DNA from: Ilex aquifolium
Taxonomy: Eukaryota > Streptophyta > Magnoliopsida > Aquifoliales > Aquifoliaceae
Direction: 5' to 3'
Assembly (NCBI GenBank): GCA_951799425.1
Contig: OX637399.1
Location: 33,019,701 to 33,083,700, forward strand
DNA length: 64,000 bases
Of the stretch, positions 1-15,390 are shown in pieces. A model generated the notes under the pieces. The model had not been told where the DNA came from, ran no database searches, and worked only from the letters and a program-made list of their open reading frames with translations. The translations under genes and the position numbers were made by a program. Position 1 is the first letter of the stretch; the number at the start of each line of letters is the position of its first letter.

Positions 1-130
1 ATTCAAATTCTAAATCTGAATCACATAAAAATCGCTGGATGTTATACAAAATTTTAACGTTTTTGAATCTTTCCAGGAAATAACCGCTGGTCTTCTTCTC
101 CATATCACACGGTTACTTCATATTGTGTTT

Positions 131-235
131 GGCAGGAGTTTCGAAGGTGATAGCAGTAGGATTTTCGAAGGTGATAGCAGTAGGAGTTTCGAAGGTGATA
201 CCATCAGCAGTTTCGAAGGGATACCAGTGGGAGTT
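131..235. repeat. 24-bp direct tandem repeat, about four units
   Basis: Four units share a TTTCGAAGG core followed by GTGATAGCAGTAGGAG-like sequence. The first two full units are nearly identical and the last two are more diverged. It lies about 400 bp upstream of the transposase start codon, so it is probably in the subterminal or promoter part of the MULE. Confidence 0.75.
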
Positions 236-469
236 CGACTTTTCCTGTGACTGCTGCCTATTCTACTAGTTCGGATTTTTCTGATGTATTTTCATTTTAA
301 TTTTATTTCTGTACATAATATGATTAACATTGATGCTTTCACAATTTACGTATAATGAAAGTTTATTGCCGGAATTTCGATATTTCTCACAGGAAGATAC
401 ATTTGAAAGTTATTTATCGGAATTATTATTAATTAATTTTCGTTTTTCCTTTGTACTTGCTGAAATACA

Positions 470-3327
470 ATGTTACTATGAATTGAATGTATTATGACGA
501 TCATCAACCTTTTTTTTTTTTTTAAAATTATGTTTTAAGTTCTTTTTCTCATGTTACTGTTCTGTTATAATGAAATTAGAATTTTTTTCATATTTTCATT
601 TTACCTTTATATTGGTTTGCTTGGTTTTAACAGATGGAGGATAACATATTGGTTTGTTGCAAGTATTGTTCTGAGACTGTTGTGCTAAGAATTACAATGA
701 ATTCCACATATGATGATGTGTTACTTGTGGTGTGTGACAATTGGAATGGGTTGAGTTCTAATTGTGTTGTACTGTCGTACGCTATTCCTGGACATCCGAA
801 TTGCGTTTTGCAAAATGATCATGATGTGAGAAACATGTTTTTAATTGCACGATCTGTACAGTTGAATTTTGTTGAAGTTACTGTTGTTGTTAAAGGGAAT
901 GTGATTCGTGATTTTGAGGGTGGGGAAGTGGTGGAAAGTTCTGAATTTATTGTTGACCCTGTTGGTTGCGAGGTTGATCTGCTCCCTCGTTTTTGTTCTC
1001 ACAATGAGAAGGTTTTGTTGACTGATGGATGGTCGATTGGAATAGTAGAGGTTGGTCAGAAGTTTGAGGGAGGAGTAGTTGAGTTTCGGAATGCTTTATG
1101 CAAATATGCAATAGAGGTTGGTTTTCAGTTTAATTATGTGAAGAATGAAAAAACAAGGGTGAAGGCTGAATGTGCCATGAAATATTCTGCTGGGTGTGAA
1201 TGGTTTGTTGTTGCTACTCTCCAGCGGATAAATGGATGGTTTTACATTAAGAAATTAAACAATCAGCACACATGTGGTGTGGCTGCACGTACGACAAATA
1301 ACAAAAGATTGACTTCTAATTTGGTTGGAGGTCTTATTGTTGATAACGTCCGACAAAAACCTGACACACGAACAGTTGATGTGAAAAGTATGTTTCATAC
1401 AGATTATGGGCTGACCATATCGTATGATCAAGCTTGGATGAGTGTTGAAAAAGTAAGGGGTATGTTGTTTGGGGATCATTCGTTGTCATACCAGCAATTA
1501 CAATGGTATGTACAGGCTGCTAATGAAAGCAATCCAGGTAGTCATTTTGTGTTGGAAGGTGATTCAGACTCACATCGTTTTAGTAGGTTGTTCATGTCAT
1601 TTAAGACATGTATACATGGATTTAACTACTGTCGACCCATATTGTTTATTGATGGTACATTTTTAAAGGGTAGGTATAAAGGCATTATTTTGTCTGCAAC
1701 TGCAAAAGATGACAACCAAGGTGAATTTTTTGTTTGGTTAATTTGGTGTTACTGATTTTATTTTACTGTTAAATTTTAATATTTTGCTTGTATGTTACTG
1801 TTTGTTGATGTTACTGTTTGTGTTGGTATATGTATTGCAGGTTTGTTCCCCTTGGCTTTTGCTGTTGTTGATTCAGAGAATGAGTGTAATTGGCGTTGGT
1901 TTTTAGAGCAATTAGCTGAGATTGTTGATAATAATAGGGAACTAACCATTATGTCTGATCACAACGTTGGCTTAATGGAAGCAATGCCAAAGGTGTTACC
2001 AACGGTGCACCATTCTTTCTGTCTACAACACCTAAAAGCAAATCTGAGAGATAAGTATAGTGGGGGTCGCTTTACACATGCGTTTCGCGAGCGTATGATT
2101 TTTTTGTTTACATTGTGTGCTTATGCTCCAACAGAGGCATTTTTCAATGAAAAGCTTGATGCGTTTCGAAGTGAAGGAGGAGCCATTGCTGATAAGTTCC
2201 TGGAAAACCTTCCGTTTGAGAAATGGACGAATGCTTTTTTTAAGGGGCGACGTTATGGGGAGATGTCTTCAAATGCGGCAGAGTCATTAAATGCTTGGAT
2301 CACAAAGTCACGTCACCTACCAGTCACAAGTATGATTGACACAATAAGGGGGCAGATCATGAACCAAATGGGGTGCCGCTTGAATGCATCGTCACAGTGG
2401 AACGACATTAATTGTCCAAATATTGAAACCAAACTTCAAGCTGCTTTCACTGAGTGTCGTTCCTGGTTTGTTAGGGTGTCATCAAGTCATGTTTACGAGG
2501 TTAATTCACATCCTTCAGTGACTGTAGACATTGAGAGTTGCACGTGCTCGTGCCACCAATGGCAAATCAACGGTTTCCCATATGCCCATGCTGTGGCTGC
2601 AATTCAAAAGAGTGGAAGAAACATCAATGAGTTTGTTGATTACTTTTATCAGGTTACTACTTACAGATTGTGTTATTCTGAGCCTATACACCCAATTCCA
2701 ACACTCGGTCGTCCTGACTTTTCAGCGGTTGACGTTGATATGTTGCCACCATTGTCAAAAAAACAACCAGGTCGTCCAAGGAAGCGTAGATTTAGGTCTA
2801 GGGGTGAGCTTGTTAGGAAAATTCATTGTGGCCGTTGTGGCCGTTGTGGTAGTCATAATAAGAAGACTTGTAACGAGCCATTGTAATATTCCTTATGTTT
2901 ATTTGGAATAAGATGTTACTTTATTTTCCATGTTATTTGAGTTTATCATGTCACACATTGGAATTATCATGGTTTATACAGTATGATTTTTTTAATAGTG
3001 TAGTGTTATCATCACATGTTCAATATGTGTTTCATGTTACTGTTAATGTTACTCCAATGTTACTAGTTAATGATCATGTGGCGATGAAATAATGTTACTT
3101 TTTAACAAGTATTTTGTGTGATTGCTTACTTTGGAGAAATTTTAATCAATTTAATACACATGTTACCTTGTTTTTGATAATTTAGCATGAATAGTTTTCA
3201 ACATTTTTACAAAGAAATTGTTCAAATTATTTCCATCCATGTGTATAACAACATTCACATTCCACTAACAACATCATTCCAGCATTCTAGAAACATATAG
3301 ACTGTCACAATTTTTATACATGTTACT
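470..3327 (+). repeat. Dispersed ATGTTACT octamer, + orientation (10 copies)
   Basis: Exact copies start at 470, 551, 1792, 1808, 2913, 3034, 3046, 3057, 3092 and 3320. All lie upstream of, in the intron of, or downstream of the transposase gene, and none is in its exons. Many continue as ATGTTACTGT. I saw no copy of the reverse complement in this half. The copies read in the same direction as transcription of the transposase. Confidence 0.85.
634..2886 (+). CDS. MURA-type MULE transposase (two exons)
   Basis: This is the DDE-type transposase of the element, expected to bind element ends and cut DNA in the nucleus. Exon 1 is 634-1720 and exon 2 is 1841-2886; the 120-bp intron (GTGAAT...TTGCAG) joins a split Gly codon in frame, giving about 710 residues. 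Order of domains: an N-terminal PB1-like segment, a MuDR DNA-binding region with a C-x-W and a distal H-x-C (about residues 150-240), the transposase core with FIDGTFLKG and TIMSDHN (first two acidic positions), the family block RRYGEMSSNAAESLN, a SWIM-type CxC motif, a basic GRPRKRR stretch and a C-terminal Cys-rich knuckle. In the SWIM motif the usual third Cys is Tyr (codon 2581-2583, reading PYAHA), so zinc binding there may be lost. No frameshift or internal stop was seen, so the gene may still be translatable. The intron carries two copies of the ATGTTACT motif. Confidence 0.88.
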
Positions 3328-3395
3328 GTTTGGGTTATTATTTCAATAAGAATGTGGACATAGTTTCCTTTGTTCGGCAAACATTCCATTAAAAT

Positions 3396-3514
3396 CAAAT
3401 ATCAACCTGTCAACAATTACAATCAATTTCTAACCAAATATCAACCACCCAACAATTACAACCACTTTCTAGGGCAAATATCAACCACCAACCAATTACA
3501 ACCAATTTATAACC
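3396..3514. repeat. 39- to 40-bp tandem repeat, three units
   Basis: Three consecutive units each start with CAAATATCAACC (3396, 3435 and 3475) and continue with CAATTACAA-like sequence. They lie between the 3' ends of the two convergent MULE genes, probably in the 3' untranslated region of the minus-strand gene. Confidence 0.7.
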
Positions 3515-3586
3515 TATCTAGCAATTAGTCTAACCAATCCTGCAATCAGCCTACAAATGAATAGCTACCACCCACAACAGAACTGC

Positions 3587-5864
3587 CTATTTGTCATGGT
3601 ATCTCTTTCTCAATCTTGATCTTGTCTTGTAGTCTTCAACAGTCCATGCATTCCTATGGTTTATGAAGGTAGACACCATATCGATCCGTAGAGCATTAAG
3701 TTGCGGTGGTTTCAATTTATCTTCTATGTGCTGTCCACGAGCAAGCTGCTGCATTAAGTAACACACGTACAATCCGCAGTCGACCCTGCATTCATGATTT
3801 TTCGTTAATGATACTAAATTTCAAGACATTAAATGTACAATATTGGACATTATTTACATACGTGTCAACTCGTTGTTGAGGACATTTCTCAAATGAAGAT
3901 ATTGGACACTTGATGTCTTGTGTACTGACAACAATGTCATCTTTGACTTCAATGACTTCATTTGTCCTTCTTTTGATGCCGACTCCACATAGTCTTTCTG
4001 CCATATAATACAATGCTGTTAATTTTGTACAACGAAAATATATCAAACAATATGGACTGTTCTAAGTGCTTCGTTCTCAACAGTCAACATTTGGATGGTT
4101 AATTTTTGAACCCCATTCTCAGCAATCAATCCAGAGTCACCTTCATTGTCATGGGAAGACTGTTGTGATTTTTTCTCTCGAGGTTCCACTTCATCTGGTT
4201 CCAAAAATGTTGATTCTCTGATGACCACATCAACAAACGCATCAAATGGTTGGTTGTTATCATTCTCCTTTTGGACATGATGATCGTTTGTTGGAACTGA
4301 AATTGCATCAGCATTTTCAGGAACATCTTCATTAACCACAAGATGTTCATCAGCAGCCACATTAGGTTCATCACCTCCAAGTTCCGATTCTGAATTTAAA
4401 CCAGTCTTGCATGGAACAGTGTTTTGTTGTGGAACCTCCACTCTATGATGTACATCCTTGCCATTTTTTCGAATTTTTTTTCGTAATTTTTTTTCAGCAA
4501 GTGTTTTCTTAAGTCTCATTTGGACAACATGACAACATCATTAGTAACATTTAAAAAATGTATTCAATAATTGTTCACATTTAATCGAATCAAATGACTG
4601 TGCATTACACAGTAACATACAAAGTAACATGCATTTTACTACAGTAACATTCACAGTAACATATATTTTTAAAATATTATCATCCATAGTAACATCAAGT
4701 TGAAATAGTAACACTGTCATGCAATTAACCAATATGTACCCAATAAAATCTCACCACTCATTTTTTAATCAAATGTCTGTGAGTTACACAGTAACTTGCA
4801 CAGTAACATTAATTACATAGTAACATTGGAGTCACATTTAGGTTTGTACTATTGACATCGACATTAACAACAATTTTTGATAGTAACATTGAACTAACAA
4901 ATTAACACTCCCATGCAATTAACAAATTGTCAAAATTATTAGAAATAAGATAACCCAAATTTTTAATAATACCTCATCATCTGTGATGTCGGCGAGTGTG
5001 TTTTGTCCGAGATACATCCATAGCTTTCTTAAATCCCATTTCATCCAACGGGGGAAAGCATCCGCATTGTCGGCCACAACAATAGATGTGTGTTCACATA
5101 TCAAATACTGCAAATTAAGTTTAGTTACATTATTCTGAACATATATTGTTTAAGGATTTTTAAAATCACTTAATAAAAAATAACAATGAAAAACTTACAG
5201 GTAACAGTACTACACAACCGGTTATTGCACTCGGTGTGTCAATCTTCAACCGTATAGAATTAATGATTGCATCAATTGTTGCTTGACACCAGTCATATCT
5301 TTTGATTTCATCTAAATTCTCAATATATGAGACATACCCCCACCCAATTGTTTGACCCATATTTGTAATCAGCAATGTCACTAAGACATATAATGAGAAT
5401 AACCTAGCAAAGTCTTCACAATCATCCTTATCATCACTCATGACAGCATCCTCCAATTTGTTTTTTATAATTGGTGCATTCAATCTTTTGGTGTTATTGA
5501 ATCTCCTTCTTACAAAATCTGACAGTTTCTTTGCACTTTGGGGGGATAAAATTGGATCCACACCATTTTCTATACCAAAAATGAGGGATACATCACTCTT
5601 CCGTATCTTTAAATGTTTCCCACCAATTCTAAATCTTGATGTGTCAACATCAAATGTGTTAATGATGTCCACAATAATTTTGTCATTCTTCTTGAACCAT
5701 TCCTTATCAACTTCATATTTTGATATTGCCTGATACAAATTCCAAAATAGGGTTCTCCTCAACTGTTCTTCGTGAACATCTTTGATGTTTAGTTCACTAA
5801 TAACCTTCACCAATGGCAGTAAGTTGGACCTGAATTGGTGAAATGATGATGTTTTTTGAGCCAT
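3587..5864 (-). CDS. Second MULE gene with C48/Ulp1-like C-terminal exon
   Basis: This minus-strand gene runs towards the transposase. The clearest model, read 5' to 3': exon 5864-5199 (start at MAQKTSS; an acceptor-like ATAG lies just before it, so an earlier exon is possible), intron, exon 5107-4973, intron, an acidic exon near 4519-4050, intron, exon from about 4004 to 3862, a 76-bp intron 3861-3786, and last exon 3785-3587. The first exon contains blocks typical of Ulp1-associated plant transposon proteins (RLFSLYVLVTLL, GWGYVSYIENLDEIKRYDW); the second has NADAFPRWMKWDLRK. The last junction joins PQQRVDT to VDCGLYVCYLM, which is the Gln/Cys box of C48 cysteine peptidases. The His and Asp of the triad, normally 70-100 residues before the Cys, are not visible, so protease activity is doubtful. 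The acceptor of the acidic exon is unresolved. Confidence 0.65.
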
Positions 5865-7106
5865 CAACCTATAATATGACAGTAACATATAAATAACTGT
5901 GTAGAATATATTAACATTACACCAATTCACTAGACTTAATGAATATACAACAATTAACCAAAGAATTTGTTCAAAATTAAAATAAAGAGTAACACTAATT
6001 TAGATTGTTTAAACACAATAACAACATCCTACGAGTGATTCTATTGCAAATTCATTGAGTACCCATTTTATATTTAAAATCAATAACAACCCCTACACTC
6101 AAATTCCATAAACTATGTAACATGTACAGTAACATACTCCAGTGTAAGATGTACAGTTCCATAAACTATGTAAAGTACTCTCACAGTAACATTAGAAAAT
6201 AAAAAAAAACCAAACCAATCAATTTCCAATGTATAACACAAAGCAAAAAAAAAAAAAAAATCATAATTCCCAAAGCTGTTATATATTAACAAAAAAATCT
6301 CAAATTGATCATAGTAACACTAATAAATAAACTGAATCATAATACAAACAAACACAATTCAGTACATTCATTTTTGAATATACGATTGATTCCATTTCAA
6401 ATTCAATGAGTTCACATTATACATTTAAAATCAAACAACAACCCCTACACTTAAATTCAATGCACATTAACATGTTTACAGTAACATCAACATGTTAGTA
6501 ACATCCACAGTATCCAAGCACATCCATACATTGAAAATATTAAGTCATTTTCTTATTTATCACACAGTAACCTGTGGAGTTTGAATGTACTCTTGAACCA
6601 GTGGTTCTTTATTTTATTGAACAACCAAGAAAGCAACAAAAAAATTCACACATCTAATTATATAACAAAATGATTAAGTAACAGTAACATGATCAAATCC
6701 ATCCCCATTGCCATATTGTGCACATTCCTCTCTCACAGTAACATTCGAAATTCCAAAGAAACCACATAAATCTATTTACAATCTATAACACAATGAAAAC
6801 AAAAATCTTAATACCAAACTCTTTTATACAGTAAAACAAAATAACAATTTTACTTTCGGAAACTTTTTAAAAAAAAAAATTCCAAAATCTTTACGATATA
6901 GGGTGTAAATGTTGTGTTAAAACCCTAAAAAAAACATCAAAGTTCATTATAAATCAAATACCTCTCAAATTTTTGAAGAATCCAAAAGATCTCTGAAGCT
7001 TTCAACAATGGCGACACCAACTGAAGCTTTTCGGCAATGGGATTTGACAACTAAAACCGATTTTCGGTTTGAATCAAGTTTGAAATTTGAATGCCAAGAG
7101 TAACAT
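4543..7106 (-). repeat. Dispersed octamer, - orientation (AGTAACAT on +, 17 copies)
   Basis: Exact + strand AGTAACAT copies start at 4543, 4611, 4623, 4643, 4655, 4688, 4802, 4819, 4882, 5881, 6128, 6185, 6480, 6497, 6683, 6737 and 7099. Near-matches such as AGTAACAC and AGTAACCT occur between them. Nine are packed into about 350 bp of one intron of the minus-strand gene (4520-4972) and most of the rest lie in its upstream region. Read on the minus strand they are the same ATGTTACT as in the left half, again in the direction of transcription. I saw no copy in the other orientation. Confidence 0.85.
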
Positions 7107-7456
7107 GAGAATTTGCCAATGGTGTCCACAGGAACCTTGAATGGTAAAACCGAGTCTTTGTTGTAGTTTAATGTAATGGGTTTTGAATTTTGAATATCAA
7201 TGGAGTCAGTTGTGATTTTGAATTATCGGTTACTGGATATTGGAGAAGGAAAAAGTTGAAGTGGAAGAGAATCGCCGGATTTGAAGCCGCTATAGAAGGG
7301 AGAGATGTCTCTGTGTAACCGTCAATGAAGAAGACAGAGAGTTTAACGACGTTAAGGGTTTTTTTAAGGGGTAGGGGTACAATGGTAAACATGGTAAAAA
7401 GTGGACTTAAAACCCTATAAGTTTTCTTGATGGACTTATCTCCAAATAAGTCCATC
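5931..7456. other. Non-coding right part of the MULE
   Basis: AT-rich DNA upstream of the minus-strand gene. It has repeated phrases (for example ACCCCTACACTCAAATTC near 6090 and a close copy near 6445) and seven copies of the oriented octamer. A short open stretch starting ATGGCGACACC at 7006 ends within about 35 codons and is not called a gene. From about 7350 the sequence resembles a transposon terminus. Confidence 0.6.
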
Positions 7457-7799
7457 TAGGGGGACCGGCCTCCAAATTTCCCAAAAAAAAATTTGCGACC
7501 CTAGTCCGGCCCGGCTTATGGACACCCTGTCCCTACCCCCACCCCACCGCACCTCACCTCACCCACCCAAACATCATAGAAAAAATATCCATTAATGTTC
7601 TAAATTAATTTTTTGAAAAAATTAAATGTAAGTAGTTACTAAAAATAATTCAAATTCAAATTTAAATGTGGGGTAGTTAACAAAAATTGTAGAAAAACGT
7701 TACATATGATGCATGTAAGAGTTAAATTAAAAATTATGAGAATTTAATATTTGAAATAGTAAGGCTTCTCAAGCACACTCTCCCGTGATTTCATTGTTA
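7457..7799. other. Intergenic AT-rich DNA
   Basis: No coding or repeat signal recognised apart from a C-rich run near 7530-7565. Confidence 0.5.
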
Positions 7800-7804
7800 T
7801 ATAT

Positions 7805-8138
7805 TGTTAGAATAAGTGGTTTATATTCAATATCTAGAGAGGTACACCAGACTCAAAAATAATGGGCCAGTTGTGCTCTGACAACTGGTCATCTAGTGGA
7901 TCTGAATTACTGCCGAAGTTGACGTTAGGAGAGCCATAAGTGCCTTCGAGATTTGCCCTAATTAGGATTATAATTTATAAATATATTAAGTTGTAATCCT
8001 GTTTCAGTATAGAATAAAAAAAATAAGGTAGCCGATCTCTCGTGGATCTAAGCAAGTTACCAAACCGCATAAAATTCTTGTATTACATCTTCTAATTTTT
8101 TTGTTTATTTAATTGTTTATCACACGCAAATCACAACA
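7805..8138 (+). repeat. Solo LTR, Ty1/copia-like
   Basis: A 334-bp sequence starts TGTTAGAATAAG and ends CACAACA, giving the TG...CA ends of an LTR. It is flanked by a perfect 5-bp target duplication TATAT (7800-7804 and 8139-8143). A TATA-like stretch lies inside. No internal region or second LTR is present, so it is a solo LTR left by LTR-LTR recombination. The copia assignment rests only on its size and TGTTAGAATAAG start. Confidence 0.75.
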
Positions 8139-8274
8139 TATATAATAGTAAGGATGCAATAGACCACAACATGATCTTTGGTGTCTAAATTTCATTTAAT
8201 ACATTTTTTTTTTAATTTCATTGAAAGGGATGTAAGACTCATTATTTATAAGCGGGTCTATCATTATAGGGAGT

Positions 8275-9110
8275 AAATATTGGGTGTAACGGTGACACCA
8301 TATCATCATTGACATGTGACATCACTATCCAATAATAAACCTACAAACAGGTAAGGTGAACCCCACTTAAGTGATTATTAAATGACATGGTAGGGTAGTT
8401 ACTGGACAGTGGTGGAGCCATAAATTTTGTTTAGAATGATCATCTTAACTATAAACTTAAATTTTTTTTCTTTCACTTGATAAAAGTAACATAACACATT
8501 TAAATTTATTATATTATATTTGTTACTCAAACATTTATTAGATACAAAATGATTCAACATCGATATGAATAACATATACAAAAAAAATAATAATAAAAAA
8601 GACTAATTATAATTATTTACAATTGATTTCGATGAGTTTTCATATTTTAAAGACGTTGTATGATGACTTCATTATTCTTACTATCGAGAATATATTTCTC
8701 TATATAAATAATTAACTCACTCGTTTGATTGTGTAACTTAATCCTCAAAATTTTTCATAACTTACAAAAATAAATTTGACATATCAAAAATTTGTCGAGA
8801 CGTGTTTGTAAAGTGTAAAATGTGTCCAAAAATTTATAGTTAATTAAGTATTTGTCTATACTACTTGATAGAACAAGAAATTGATAAATTGAACACAAAA
8901 TATATACAGTGAGCACCATAAAATATACTAAAAAGTTTTAGAAATATATAAGTAATAATTTTAAAAAAAAAAAAATTAGGGTGGGCCTGTGCCCTTTGGT
9001 CCACTATTACTAAAATATATGGGATCCATACATCCACATGTTATCTTTTCATTGGACGGTTACACCATATCAGTATGATGATATGGTGTAACGGTTACAC
9101 ATAATAATTT
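8275..9110. repeat. MITE with about 34-bp inverted ends, split by an insertion
   Basis: The left end reads AAATATTGGGTGTAACGG and continues to CACCATATCATC. The right end, reverse complemented, reads AAATTATTATGTGTAACC and also continues to CACCATATCATC. The stretch to about 8402 and the stretch from about 9006 together match the intact MITE at 56375-56604 in inverted orientation, so the element was originally about 230 bp. No clear target duplication was found. Confidence 0.6.
8403..9005. mobile_element. Insertion inside the MITE, family unknown
   Basis: About 600 bp interrupts the MITE. It begins near GGACAGTGGTGGAGCC and ends near GGTCCACTATTACT, so the ends are partly complementary (AGTGG and CCACT), and TTACT occurs at both borders. 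AT-rich, with no coding capacity seen. A non-autonomous DNA transposon is likely but its class is not certain. Confidence 0.4.
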
Positions 9111-9832
9111 TTCCACTATGAGAGGTGTATTTGAGGGAATTGTACACCGTAGAAGACCATACACATGAGTATAAAATAGAACTTTATCCAAAACCATAAA
9201 AAATAAAAAAAAGCTTGTCAACTAGTTGTTTGTATTGACTATTTGTCTAAACCCAATCTAATGATAAGAACAAAAGAAGAAAAACGAAAAACTATAAACG
9301 CGTATACCTACGACCACATGACTATTGAACTCCCAAATATGCATATTGTCATTGTGTTTTACCTTTGTAACATATTACCTCCCCAAATTTTGAAAACTTA
9401 CATATAATCCACTATAATTTTGGATCAATTCGAAACTATTACTACTTTTATTTAAATCGACGAAAAGTAATTTCAACCCCCGCCCAAAAAGTGTTTTAAA
9501 ATCAAGTAATGACATGCTTAGTAAAACTCTATACTCAGGGGGCGGCCTCTGACATTGTGGAGCCTAAAGCGACAATTAAAAAATCGATTTATTCTTCTTG
9601 TTTTTTAAAACCCCAATATTTATATTTTTTATTAAATTCTACTCCCTTAGTTTTAATATAACATCATACATAAAAATTAATTTGATTGAAGTTTGACATA
9701 TATTAGAAACAATCAACCAAAATTTTAGATAACTGCACTTATTTCTCTAAAACTTTTAAAAATATTTGAATCTTATTAAATAATTTAATTCAATGCAATG
9801 TATAACCTAGATCTCACAGTGTTGTGATGGTG
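9111..9832. other. Intergenic AT-rich DNA left of the gypsy element
   Basis: No gene, RNA or repeat recognised. The stretch ends at the target duplication ACAAT (9833-9837) of the large Ty3/gypsy insertion. Confidence 0.5.
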
Positions 9833-14997: not shown

Positions 14998-15390
14998 CTA
15001 CCGGAAGGTGTGTGTCGGTCTTCCGGAAGGTTTTGCTAAAAACCCCAGCTTGCCTTGTTCACAGCTAATACCTTCCGGAAGGTTTTGCCCACTGGAATGA
15101 ACCTTTCGGAAGATTTTAGCTACTGGAGTAAAACCTACCGGAAGGACTTGTCTACTGGAGTGGACCTTCCGGAAGGTTTTGCCTTGGGTTTCTTTTTGAC
15201 TGCCGAATCCTTCCGGAAGGTTTTGTTTTCTGGAATGAACCTTCCGGAAGGTTTTGGCTACTGGAATGGACCTTCCGGAAGGTTTTTGCTACTGATGTCG
15301 ACCTTCCGGAAGTTCTTGAAATTGATCTTTTTCATGTAACAGTTCCTTCAGCGACCTTCCGGTAGGTGTATGTCGACCTTCCGGAAGGTT
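14998..15390. repeat. Array of ACCTTCCGGAAGGT palindromes in the LTR
   Basis: Twelve copies in about 390 bp: eight carry a perfect TTCCGGAA core and four are single-base variants. They are spaced irregularly (about 15-55 bp) and often followed by TTTTG and CTACTGGA. The core fits the TTCnnGAA pattern of heat-shock elements and can form hairpins. The array recurs in all four LTRs (22641-23033, 30284-30676, 37927-38319). Confidence 0.85.

Follow-up and report, generated by a model that had tools for sequence, protein, structure and literature searches.

Related Mutator-like transposons (MULEs) in the genome of Ilex aquifolium carry a short non-coding motif that changes with the lineage of the element. 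One of them lies in the 64,000-nucleotide stretch of DNA analysed here (the window) and is a MULE with a transposase gene on the + strand and a second gene, gene 2, on the − strand. By analogy with Arabidopsis, the octamer of this element and gene 2 probably form a VANC-type pair for sequence-specific anti-silencing, with each lineage having its own protein/motif pair.

By exact count, the octamer ATGTTACT is present 10 times in 1–3330 (starts at 470, 551, 1792, 1808, 2913, 3034, 3046, 3057, 3092, and 3320) and its complement AGTAACAT 17 times in 4500–7110 (starts at 4543, 4611, 4623, 4643, 4655, 4688, 4802, 4819, 4882, 5881, 6128, 6185, 6480, 6497, 6683, 6737, and 7099), with no opposite-strand copy in either half. 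An earlier note on this DNA had given the same counts, and its statements that the motif is far commoner than expected and avoids recognised coding exons were borne out as well. In 500 dinucleotide shuffles of 1–7500, the mean was 0.52 and the maximum 3, against 27 observed, and the commonest octamer with at least three different letters never exceeded 11 copies. Another 3 copies were found in the remaining 56.5 kb of the window. The exons of the gene models make up 51% of 1–7482, yet hold 0 of the 27 copies (5e-9 by simple proportion). Read as AGTAACAT on the − strand, two copies are upstream of the transposase gene (470..558), two are in its intron (1792..1815), and six lie between the two genes (2913..3327). 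On the + strand, nine are in an intron of gene 2 (4543..4889), some of them within a 32-bp tandem repeat (4605–4669), and eight are upstream of gene 2 exon 1 (5881..7106). The wider context is A-Y-AGTAACAT, with A at −2 in 23 and Y at −1 in 22 of the 27 copies.

The earlier note had proposed looking in other copies of this MULE family for co-variation of the motif with the minus-strand protein. Four further elements, L069 to L072, were picked from 81 for the divergence of their gene 2 (83, 48, 42, and 43% identity to the window copy), and their dominant words were, in turn, AGTAACAT, AGTGACAT, AGTGTAAC, and CAGTTACA. The cross-table of motifs and elements was nearly diagonal, each of the five elements having 17–27 copies of its own word and 0–3 of the others' words. 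Given in the order of these four words, the counts were 27/1/0/0 in the window, 25/2/2/2 in L069, 2/19/1/0 in L070, 1/1/17/0 in L071, and 0/0/3/22 in L072. In each element the own word exceeded all 200 shuffles of its own stretch, and no copy of it fell in a recognised exon in any of the five. In L072, ACAGTTAC is the commoner register, and one copy of it is in a transposase exon (1416). All the words share AGT. Placement across the genome agreed with the table. Among the 82 gene 2 matches listed for C1–C8 and for C9 up to 9.3 Mb, a AGTGACAT pair was near 3 of the 7 in the 46–49% identity class versus 1 of the 75 others, leaving 4 of the 7 with no such pair nearby. Also among the matches listed, CAGTTACA pairs were near 4 of the 6 in the 40–45% class versus 0 of the 11 others on C1, and genome-wide there were 1,113 CAGTTACA pairs versus 468 for the control.

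The transposase is encoded by exon 1 at 634..1730 (DBD_Tnp_Mut, E 4e-12) and exon 2 at 1840..2886 (MULE, E 5.8e-12; SWIM, 8.4e-6), both on the + strand; 116 genomic matches to exon 2 were scored. Its convergent arrangement with gene 2 recurs in 81 of the 85 transposase/gene 2 pairs found within 9 kb of each other in this genome. The element does not end at 7106, where the range given earlier stops, but at 7482, because other copies have near-identical terminal sequence and different flanks there; homology stops at 7481–7492 in 20 of the 30 gene 2 loci. Its left end, judged from L069, is about 0.33 kb beyond the window, so that the part in view is 1..7482. The right terminal region (7402..7482) is an inverted match to the opposite end of L069, forming a degenerate terminal inverted repeat (TIR), and is adjoined by a candidate 9-bp target duplication, AAAAAAAAA (7483–7491), whose other side is outside the view. 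L069 is a complete element (883–9805) with a TIR of 64 bp at 83% and a 9-bp target site duplication (TSD), TATTTGTAT. No convincing terminal repeats were found inside the 10-kb stretches of L070–L072.

Gene 2 appears, from sequence similarity, to be distantly homologous to DUF1985/PMD- and Ulp1-type proteins. On the − strand, exon 1 (5199..5864) has a DUF1985/PMD-like region (E 0.018/0.013, below the cut-offs); of 873 candidate genomic matches to this exon, 150 were scored. Exon 2 (4973..5107) has in-frame splice sites read by eye, and L069–L072 match it at 37–69% identity. Exon 3 (4046..4507) is cut by a deletion, and the reading frame stops just past it. Remains of the C-terminal exons (3590..4010, as 3864–4010 and 3590–3820) hold the end of a Peptidase_C48 domain with VDCG (E 0.061). 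DUF1985 was matched in four of the five elements (E 0.018, 0.016, 0.0046, and 0.039), always short of the Pfam cut-off, while L070 gave no DUF1985 match and PMD alone at 0.065. Pfam searches of single C-terminal exons gained little, and the joined exons of L070 matched C48 at E 3.7e-10. In L069, a Tyr replaces the Ulp1 catalytic Cys. A protein search returned the homologs P0001 and P0002, both with DUF1985/PMD and P0002 also with C48; DUF1985 in P0002 scored E 1.7e-5, below the cut-off, and the protein database lists PF09331 for it.

In the window, gene 2 is a shortened derivative in which only the terminal part of Ulp1 remains, a point missed when the minus-strand gene was first put forward as the recogniser. 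Measured against the closest relatives, the deletion (scar at 4055..4062) has taken out about 1.7 kb, which, judged from L069, holds a coil-like part and the half of the Ulp1 domain that bears HW. Homology breaks at the scar in 25 of 26 gene 2 loci (L009, L010, L011, and L013 set aside), the exception, L017, having given a stray match. The inner distance is 2,322 in the window versus 3,976–4,002 in four pairs with 96–97% gene 2 identity, and the same 1.7 kb is missing from the window copy and three siblings, so that gene 2 is cut in all of them. The deletion also bears on the flip of motif strand between the two genes, which holds for the window copy and is not absolute. L069 retains the deleted stretch with 4 opposite-facing copies inside it, and the strict split of the window copy is thus in part an effect of the loss. 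Since sister copies carry opposite-facing motifs (70 of 799 across 60 loci of the closest lineage), an absolute strand split was dropped. An outward orientation is mostly common to the five elements, with copies facing the same way within blocks except for 4 of 9 gene 2 intron copies in L069 and, in L072, 2 of 9 intergenic copies and 1 of 5 in the gene 2 intron.

As the mechanism, we propose that the second protein encoded by the element would recognise the extended A-Y-AGTAACAT as its target site. This protein would be a DUF1985-like factor of the VANC type, with an added coil-like and Ulp1 part in the fuller relatives. It would bind the dense same-facing arrays outside the coding sequence and take away or prevent DNA methylation across the element, and both genes would thereby stay transcribable. 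Each lineage in the genome would have its own such pair. DNA binding by the gene 2 protein and an anti-silencing or demethylating effect are both inferred. A point against this reading is that helical periodicity of motif spacing, which Sasaki et al. reportedly described in 2022 as a VANC feature, was weak here (R 0.20 at 10.5 bp, from 118 distinct pairs, and 0.30 at 9.5 bp).

The choice of gene 2 as the reader has to be weighed against the transposase. The VANC-like pairing of the earlier note is strongly supported by the co-variation of motif and lineage and by the homology of gene 2; its recogniser, however, stays an inference because the transposase diverges in parallel. Identity to transposase exon 2 of the window falls along with the motif change (91, 72, 68, and 66% in L069–L072). 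A transposase that reads the motif and co-evolves with it would recall maize MURA, which reportedly lowers TIR methylation, an effect cited in PMC10398659. The motifs, however, are in introns and flanks, with some 300 bases between the terminal region and the nearest copy, and in the available parts of the published accounts arrays of such kind belong to VANC proteins. We therefore regard the transposase as an unlikely reader and gene 2 as the better candidate.

It is also quite unlikely that a satellite-like word without any reader has spread neutrally through tandem duplication and slippage. The motif does occur inside tandem repeats of L071 (209 bp, 5.9 copies) and L072 (199–260 bp), those of the window being short, and arrays are abundant elsewhere. 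No motif-carrying tandem repeat was found in L070, and the tandem repeats of L069 sit away from its motif clusters. Against neutral spread, the 27 window copies have varied outer flanks around the common A-Y-AGTAACAT core, and each lineage has a different yet similar word. When motifs were masked before alignment, octamers of the motif were preserved whole more frequently than other octamers of non-coding DNA in all 18 locus comparisons (18 of the 60 loci, mutually related). Constraint at the base level was weak, the motif bases being better conserved than the 12-bp flanks (p<0.05) in just 2 of 18 comparisons and falling below them in 3.

A signal in RNA, such as a site for splicing or RNA binding, had been suggested because ATGTTACT runs with the direction of transcription of each gene in most copies (all 27 in the window, 729 of 799 across the 60 loci). 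With convergent genes, sense orientation is indistinguishable from an outward-facing orientation of DNA, and it is no argument for RNA because same-orientation arrays are also reported for the DNA targets of VANC21 (PMC5735166). Both genes also have copies upstream of them, 3′ flanks have others, the 70 opposite copies are antisense, the word varies among lineages that share one splicing machinery, and 11 copies occur in a dispersed (TA)n-flanked repeat whose examined stretch contains no gene. An RNA-level role is thus very improbable. Equally hard to credit is a host transcription factor using the motif as the element's promoter or enhancer, which would suit the copies upstream of both genes, but not those in introns and 3′ flanks, and whose site would not be expected to change with each transposon lineage.

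Repeats of about 440 bp, with (TA)n on both sides and the same extended motif, are a new observation. The one copy read, L073, has 11 same-facing AGTAACAT motifs (all preceded by Y, and 9 of them with A at −2) and no gene in the 481 bases examined. Copies of this type are 98–100% identical (40 scored of 1,932 first-look candidates), and L073 was not among the 45 listed matches to the window TIR (40 of 2,424 candidates scored). A second repeat outside the MULEs carries AGTGTAAC. Tentatively, such high-copy non-coding repeats may hitch-hike on the anti-silencing proteins, L073 having taken up the AGTAACAT target and the second repeat the AGTGTAAC target; alternatively, they may be decoys that titrate the protein. 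If they hitch-hike, the protection given by a single protein lineage would reach far more loci than its own family, and its action a much larger share of the genome.

If the protein of each element recognises that element's DNA and protects it from silencing, the system known from Arabidopsis, where VANC systems have been tested, would extend to another plant. With at least four word/protein lineages in a single genome, and AGT at the core of every word as in Arabidopsis, the code of protein–DNA recognition becomes a comparative problem; gene 2 variants are many, and the cognate word can be predicted from each element. The repeats outside the MULEs would let one ask how far transposon anti-silencing reaches other DNA.

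Like VANDAL21/VANC21 and VANDAL6/VANC6 of Arabidopsis, the Ilex elements combine a MULE transposase with a putative anti-silencing protein, and share with them a short, lineage-specific AGT word that is non-coding, same-facing, in some of the elements part of tandem repeats, and different among related elements (PMC5735166, PMC10398659). The VANC21 motif is YAGTATTAY and those of VANC6 are AGTTGTCC and AGTTGTAC, all with AGT (PMC5735166), whereas the words here are AGTAACAT, AGTGACAT, AGTGTAAC, and CAGTTACA; in the available literature on VANC-type and Ulp1-bearing MULEs, searched by the names of these systems and domains, no paper on these four was seen. Unlike VANDAL21, with VANA, VANB, and VANC, the Ilex element has two genes. 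Further differences from VANDAL21 and VANDAL6 are the Ulp1 part of gene 2 in fuller relatives and its weak DUF1985 match, the two large motif blocks that point outward from the space between the convergent genes, the short TIR of L069, the other host plant (800 Mb), and recognition that is here predicted from sequence. Also similar are the KIU-carrying (KAONASHI) MULEs, in which a Ulp1-domain gene is in reverse to the transposase gene, and for which VANC-type genes with Ulp1 and motif-specific hypomethylation within the elements have been reported (PMC13317346, PMC2528002). These KI-MULEs are described as non-TIR, unlike L069 with its TIR and 9-bp TSD, and the window copy differs from them in lacking most of the Ulp1 domain. 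The L073-type repeats, in turn, resemble the microsatellite-targeted non-autonomous MULEs SaTar and Micron in their length, (TA)n flanks, and dispersed near-identical copies (PMC5907723). AGTAACAT was not found in the available text of that source, and it is by their 11 same-facing AGTAACAT motifs that the Ilex repeats stand apart from SaTar and Micron.

The earlier note had reported one octamer, on opposite strands in the two halves of the MULE, and both of its counts were exact on recounting. Read as AGTAACAT, with A-Y-AGTAACAT as its extended context, the word occurs 27 times in 1–7500, and the comparison with shuffled sequence proposed in the note gave a mean of 0.52 and a maximum of 3 (500 dinucleotide shuffles); the commonest octamer with at least three different letters never exceeded 11 copies in these shuffles. 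The remaining 56.5 kb of the window contains only 3 copies. The absence of the word from recognised coding exons also held, as all 27 copies lie outside the modelled exons, which occupy 51% of the part of the element in the window. The observation is real and strong.

The transposase is encoded on the plus strand in two exons (634–1730 and 1840–2886) with matches to DBD_Tnp_Mut, MULE and SWIM. The convergent gene 2, on the minus strand, opens with an exon of 222 codons (5199–5864) weakly resembling DUF1985 and PMD, and its 3' end matches the profile of the final part of a C48 peptidase; splice sites of the gene models were assigned by eye. The right end of the element is at 7482, where near-identical terminal sequence joins different flanks in other copies. 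L069, a relative whose gene 2 is 83% identical, is a complete element (883–9805) bounded by a 9-bp target duplication, TATTTGTAT, its terminal inverted repeat spanning 64 bp at 83%; comparison with it would place the left end of our element approximately 0.33 kb left of the window. A 24-bp tandem repeat (AGGAGTTTCGAAGGTGATACCAGT, 4.3 copies) is present at 134–235, upstream of the transposase. Elsewhere in the window, at 15001–38317, four CCGGAAGG/CCTTCCGG arrays spaced by exactly 7,643 bases (15001, 22644, 30287, 37930) form a 7.6-kb tandem unit.

Homology to the window reached both locus ends (3705–7364) in L009, L011, L013 and the window's own locus, L010. Of the remaining 26 gene-2 loci, 25 lost it at 4055–4060, where the window copy has a deletion, and L017 was a stray match from position 1. 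The inner distance from gene 2 to the transposase is 2,322 bases in the window versus 3,976–4,002 in four pairs with a 96–97% gene 2. What the deletion removed can be seen in L069, where there is a long frame that looks coil-like by eye and another with HW, as is typical of C48. Therefore, gene 2 of the window is truncated after about 420 residues, with the DUF1985-like part open and the Ulp1 part incomplete. L069 has VDYG, with Tyr at the position of the catalytic Cys of C48, and VDCG is present in the window and L070.

In a search of the species' own genome (800 Mb, 103 contigs), 150 of 873 candidate matches were scored for gene 2, and 116 of 1,808 for the transposase. Among these, 85 gene-2 matches were at most 9 kb from a transposase match, and 81 of the 85 pairs were convergent, a few transposase matches being paired with two gene-2 matches each. 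In the 92–100% lineage (30 gene-2 and 30 transposase loci, the window's own included), every locus carried at least 8 octamers, with 729 of 799 in gene sense and none within a matched exon, although the 60 loci are not independent because many are near-identical and some have identical flanks. Eight copies of a 93% subgroup (L019–L026) have the same flanking sequence past the element end and therefore spread as part of a bigger unit, duplicated or nested. At L037 and L038 (G000:C18; gene-2 matches at 17472361, 17481423 and 17490485), tandem MULE copies are spaced by 9,062 bases, with only 7–9 bases between ends (TACTTAA or TACTTAAGT), as if one target duplication were held in common.

Co-variation of the motif with gene 2, which the note had proposed to examine, was found. 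Four 10-kb stretches, L069–L072 (gene 2 at 83, 48, 42 and 43% identity), were chosen from the 81 pairs by gene-2 divergence, before motif inspection, and the dominant word differed by gene-2 lineage. The top octamers were AGTAACAT in L069, AGTGACAT in L070, AAGTGTAA (register AGTGTAAC) in L071 and ACAGTTAC (register CAGTTACA) in L072. Counts of AGTAACAT/AGTGACAT/AGTGTAAC/CAGTTACA were 27/1/0/0 in the window element, 25/2/2/2 in L069, 2/19/1/0 in L070, 1/1/17/0 in L071 and 0/0/3/22 in L072, and the own word of each stretch exceeded all 200 shuffles of that stretch. None of these own words fell in a recognised exon of the five elements, the coding part of L070–L072 being a lower bound because gene 2 exon 3 was unmatched in L070 and L071 and matched only at chance-level similarity in L072; in the other register, one ACAGTTAC copy lies inside transposase exon 1 of L072 (1416).

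The genome-wide places of paired motifs, sought within −2.5 to +7.5 kb of gene-2 matches, agree with these lineages. Among matches listed on C1–C8 and part of C9, AGTGACAT pairs were near 3 of 7 in the 46–49% class, 1 of 16 at 92–100%, 0 of 27 at 64–89%, 0 of 31 at 40–45% and 0 of 1 at 59%; the 4 of 7 in the 46–49% class without nearby pairs may carry further words. Among those listed on C1, CAGTTACA pairs (to 54.3 Mb) were near 4 of 6 in the 40–45% class and 0 of 11 others, and AGTGTAAC pairs (to 44.6 Mb) near 1 of 4 and 0 of 8. Against the reversed control, pairs numbered 9,859 versus 297 for AGTAACAT, 183 versus 48 for AGTGACAT, 2,534 versus 218 for AGTGTAAC and only 1,113 versus 468 for CAGTTACA.

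With the transposase set on the plus strand, the five elements together had AGT on the minus strand in 17/17 copies located in the transposase intron or upstream of that gene; for gene 2, copies in introns or upstream had it on the plus strand in 51/56. Between the genes, it followed the transposase side in 28/28 copies of four elements and the gene 2 side in 7/9 of L072. The arrays therefore face outward from the middle, which, because the genes are convergent, is also the sense orientation of the complement, and the two readings are inseparable here. For retention, 18 of the 60 loci were compared with the window, the motif being masked before alignment. In all 18, motif octamers of the window were intact more often than other non-coding octamers, strongly in L028 (10/15 vs 27%) and L036 (11/13 vs 29%), weakly in L012 (12/15 vs 76%) and L043 (6/10 vs 55%). 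Motif bases were above their 12-base flanks (p<0.05) in 2 of 18 comparisons and below in 3; with retention over flanks in so few, selection on the word itself is moderately supported.

The word is also found outside these MULEs. Among the first 100 entries in the list of AGTAACAT pairs, which reach 5.36 Mb on C1, 41 were in stretches assigned to them and 59 in 15 other loci. One of the latter, L073 (G000:C1:5359500–5359980), is a repeat of ~440 bp with (TA)n tracts on both sides; it carries 11 AGTAACAT copies on one strand, preceded by Y in 11/11 and with A at −2 in 9/11; all 40 relatives scored, of 1,932 candidates, were 98–100% identical. It is similar to the SaTar/Micron elements, as portrayed in excerpts of PMC5907723. 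Among the places listed, AGTGTAAC pairs were mostly short arrays away from gene 2, many in both orientations; such arrays are abundant at places similar to G000:C1:25285–25541, where both orientations occur. According to excerpts of PMC5735166, AT9TSD1 of Arabidopsis is unrelated to VANDAL, yet has VANC6 motifs and is affected by VANC6, and is a precedent for VANC-type motifs outside their MULEs.

Eight gene-2 copies aligned over exon 1 share 54 invariant positions. The protein matched two others elsewhere: P0002 of Camellia fascicularis (DUF1985 1.7e-5, PMD 1.5e-4, C48 3.3e-4) and P0001 of Tripterygium wilfordii (LOC120007633; PMD 1.1e-5, DUF1985 0.012, complete XH domain 5.7e-54). Because of these homologs and the C48 match of the joined L070 C-terminal exons (3.7e-10), gene 2 appears to belong with plant DUF1985/PMD-Ulp1 proteins, although in the five elements tested none of its DUF1985 matches attained Pfam's cut-off. 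IDN2/FDM proteins, which act in RNA-directed DNA methylation, contain XH domains; that of P0001 may offer a clue to mechanism, or may come from a fused gene prediction.

The octamer and gene 2 are best explained as a putative VANC-type recogniser/target pair, uncharacterised until now, and this genome would hold at least four such putative pairs. By anatomy, with a weak DUF1985 match, membership in the VANC system is probable. A 2026 review (PMC13317346, in excerpt) describes VANC genes with Ulp1 (KIU) that recognise motifs within KIU-carrying elements; the element is not a KI-MULE in the strict sense, because a short TIR is present. According to PMC5735166, VANC21 binds YAGTATTAY in non-coding DNA, in vivo and in vitro, its motifs lying same-oriented in arrays, frequently within tandem repeats, and the targets of VANC6 contain AGTTGTCC and AGTTGTAC. 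The Y-AGT frame is common to the VANC21 motif and A-Y-AGTAACAT, and AGT to the VANC21 and VANC6 motifs and all four words here. By this analogy, the system in the window would strongly resemble the VANC system in the way it works.
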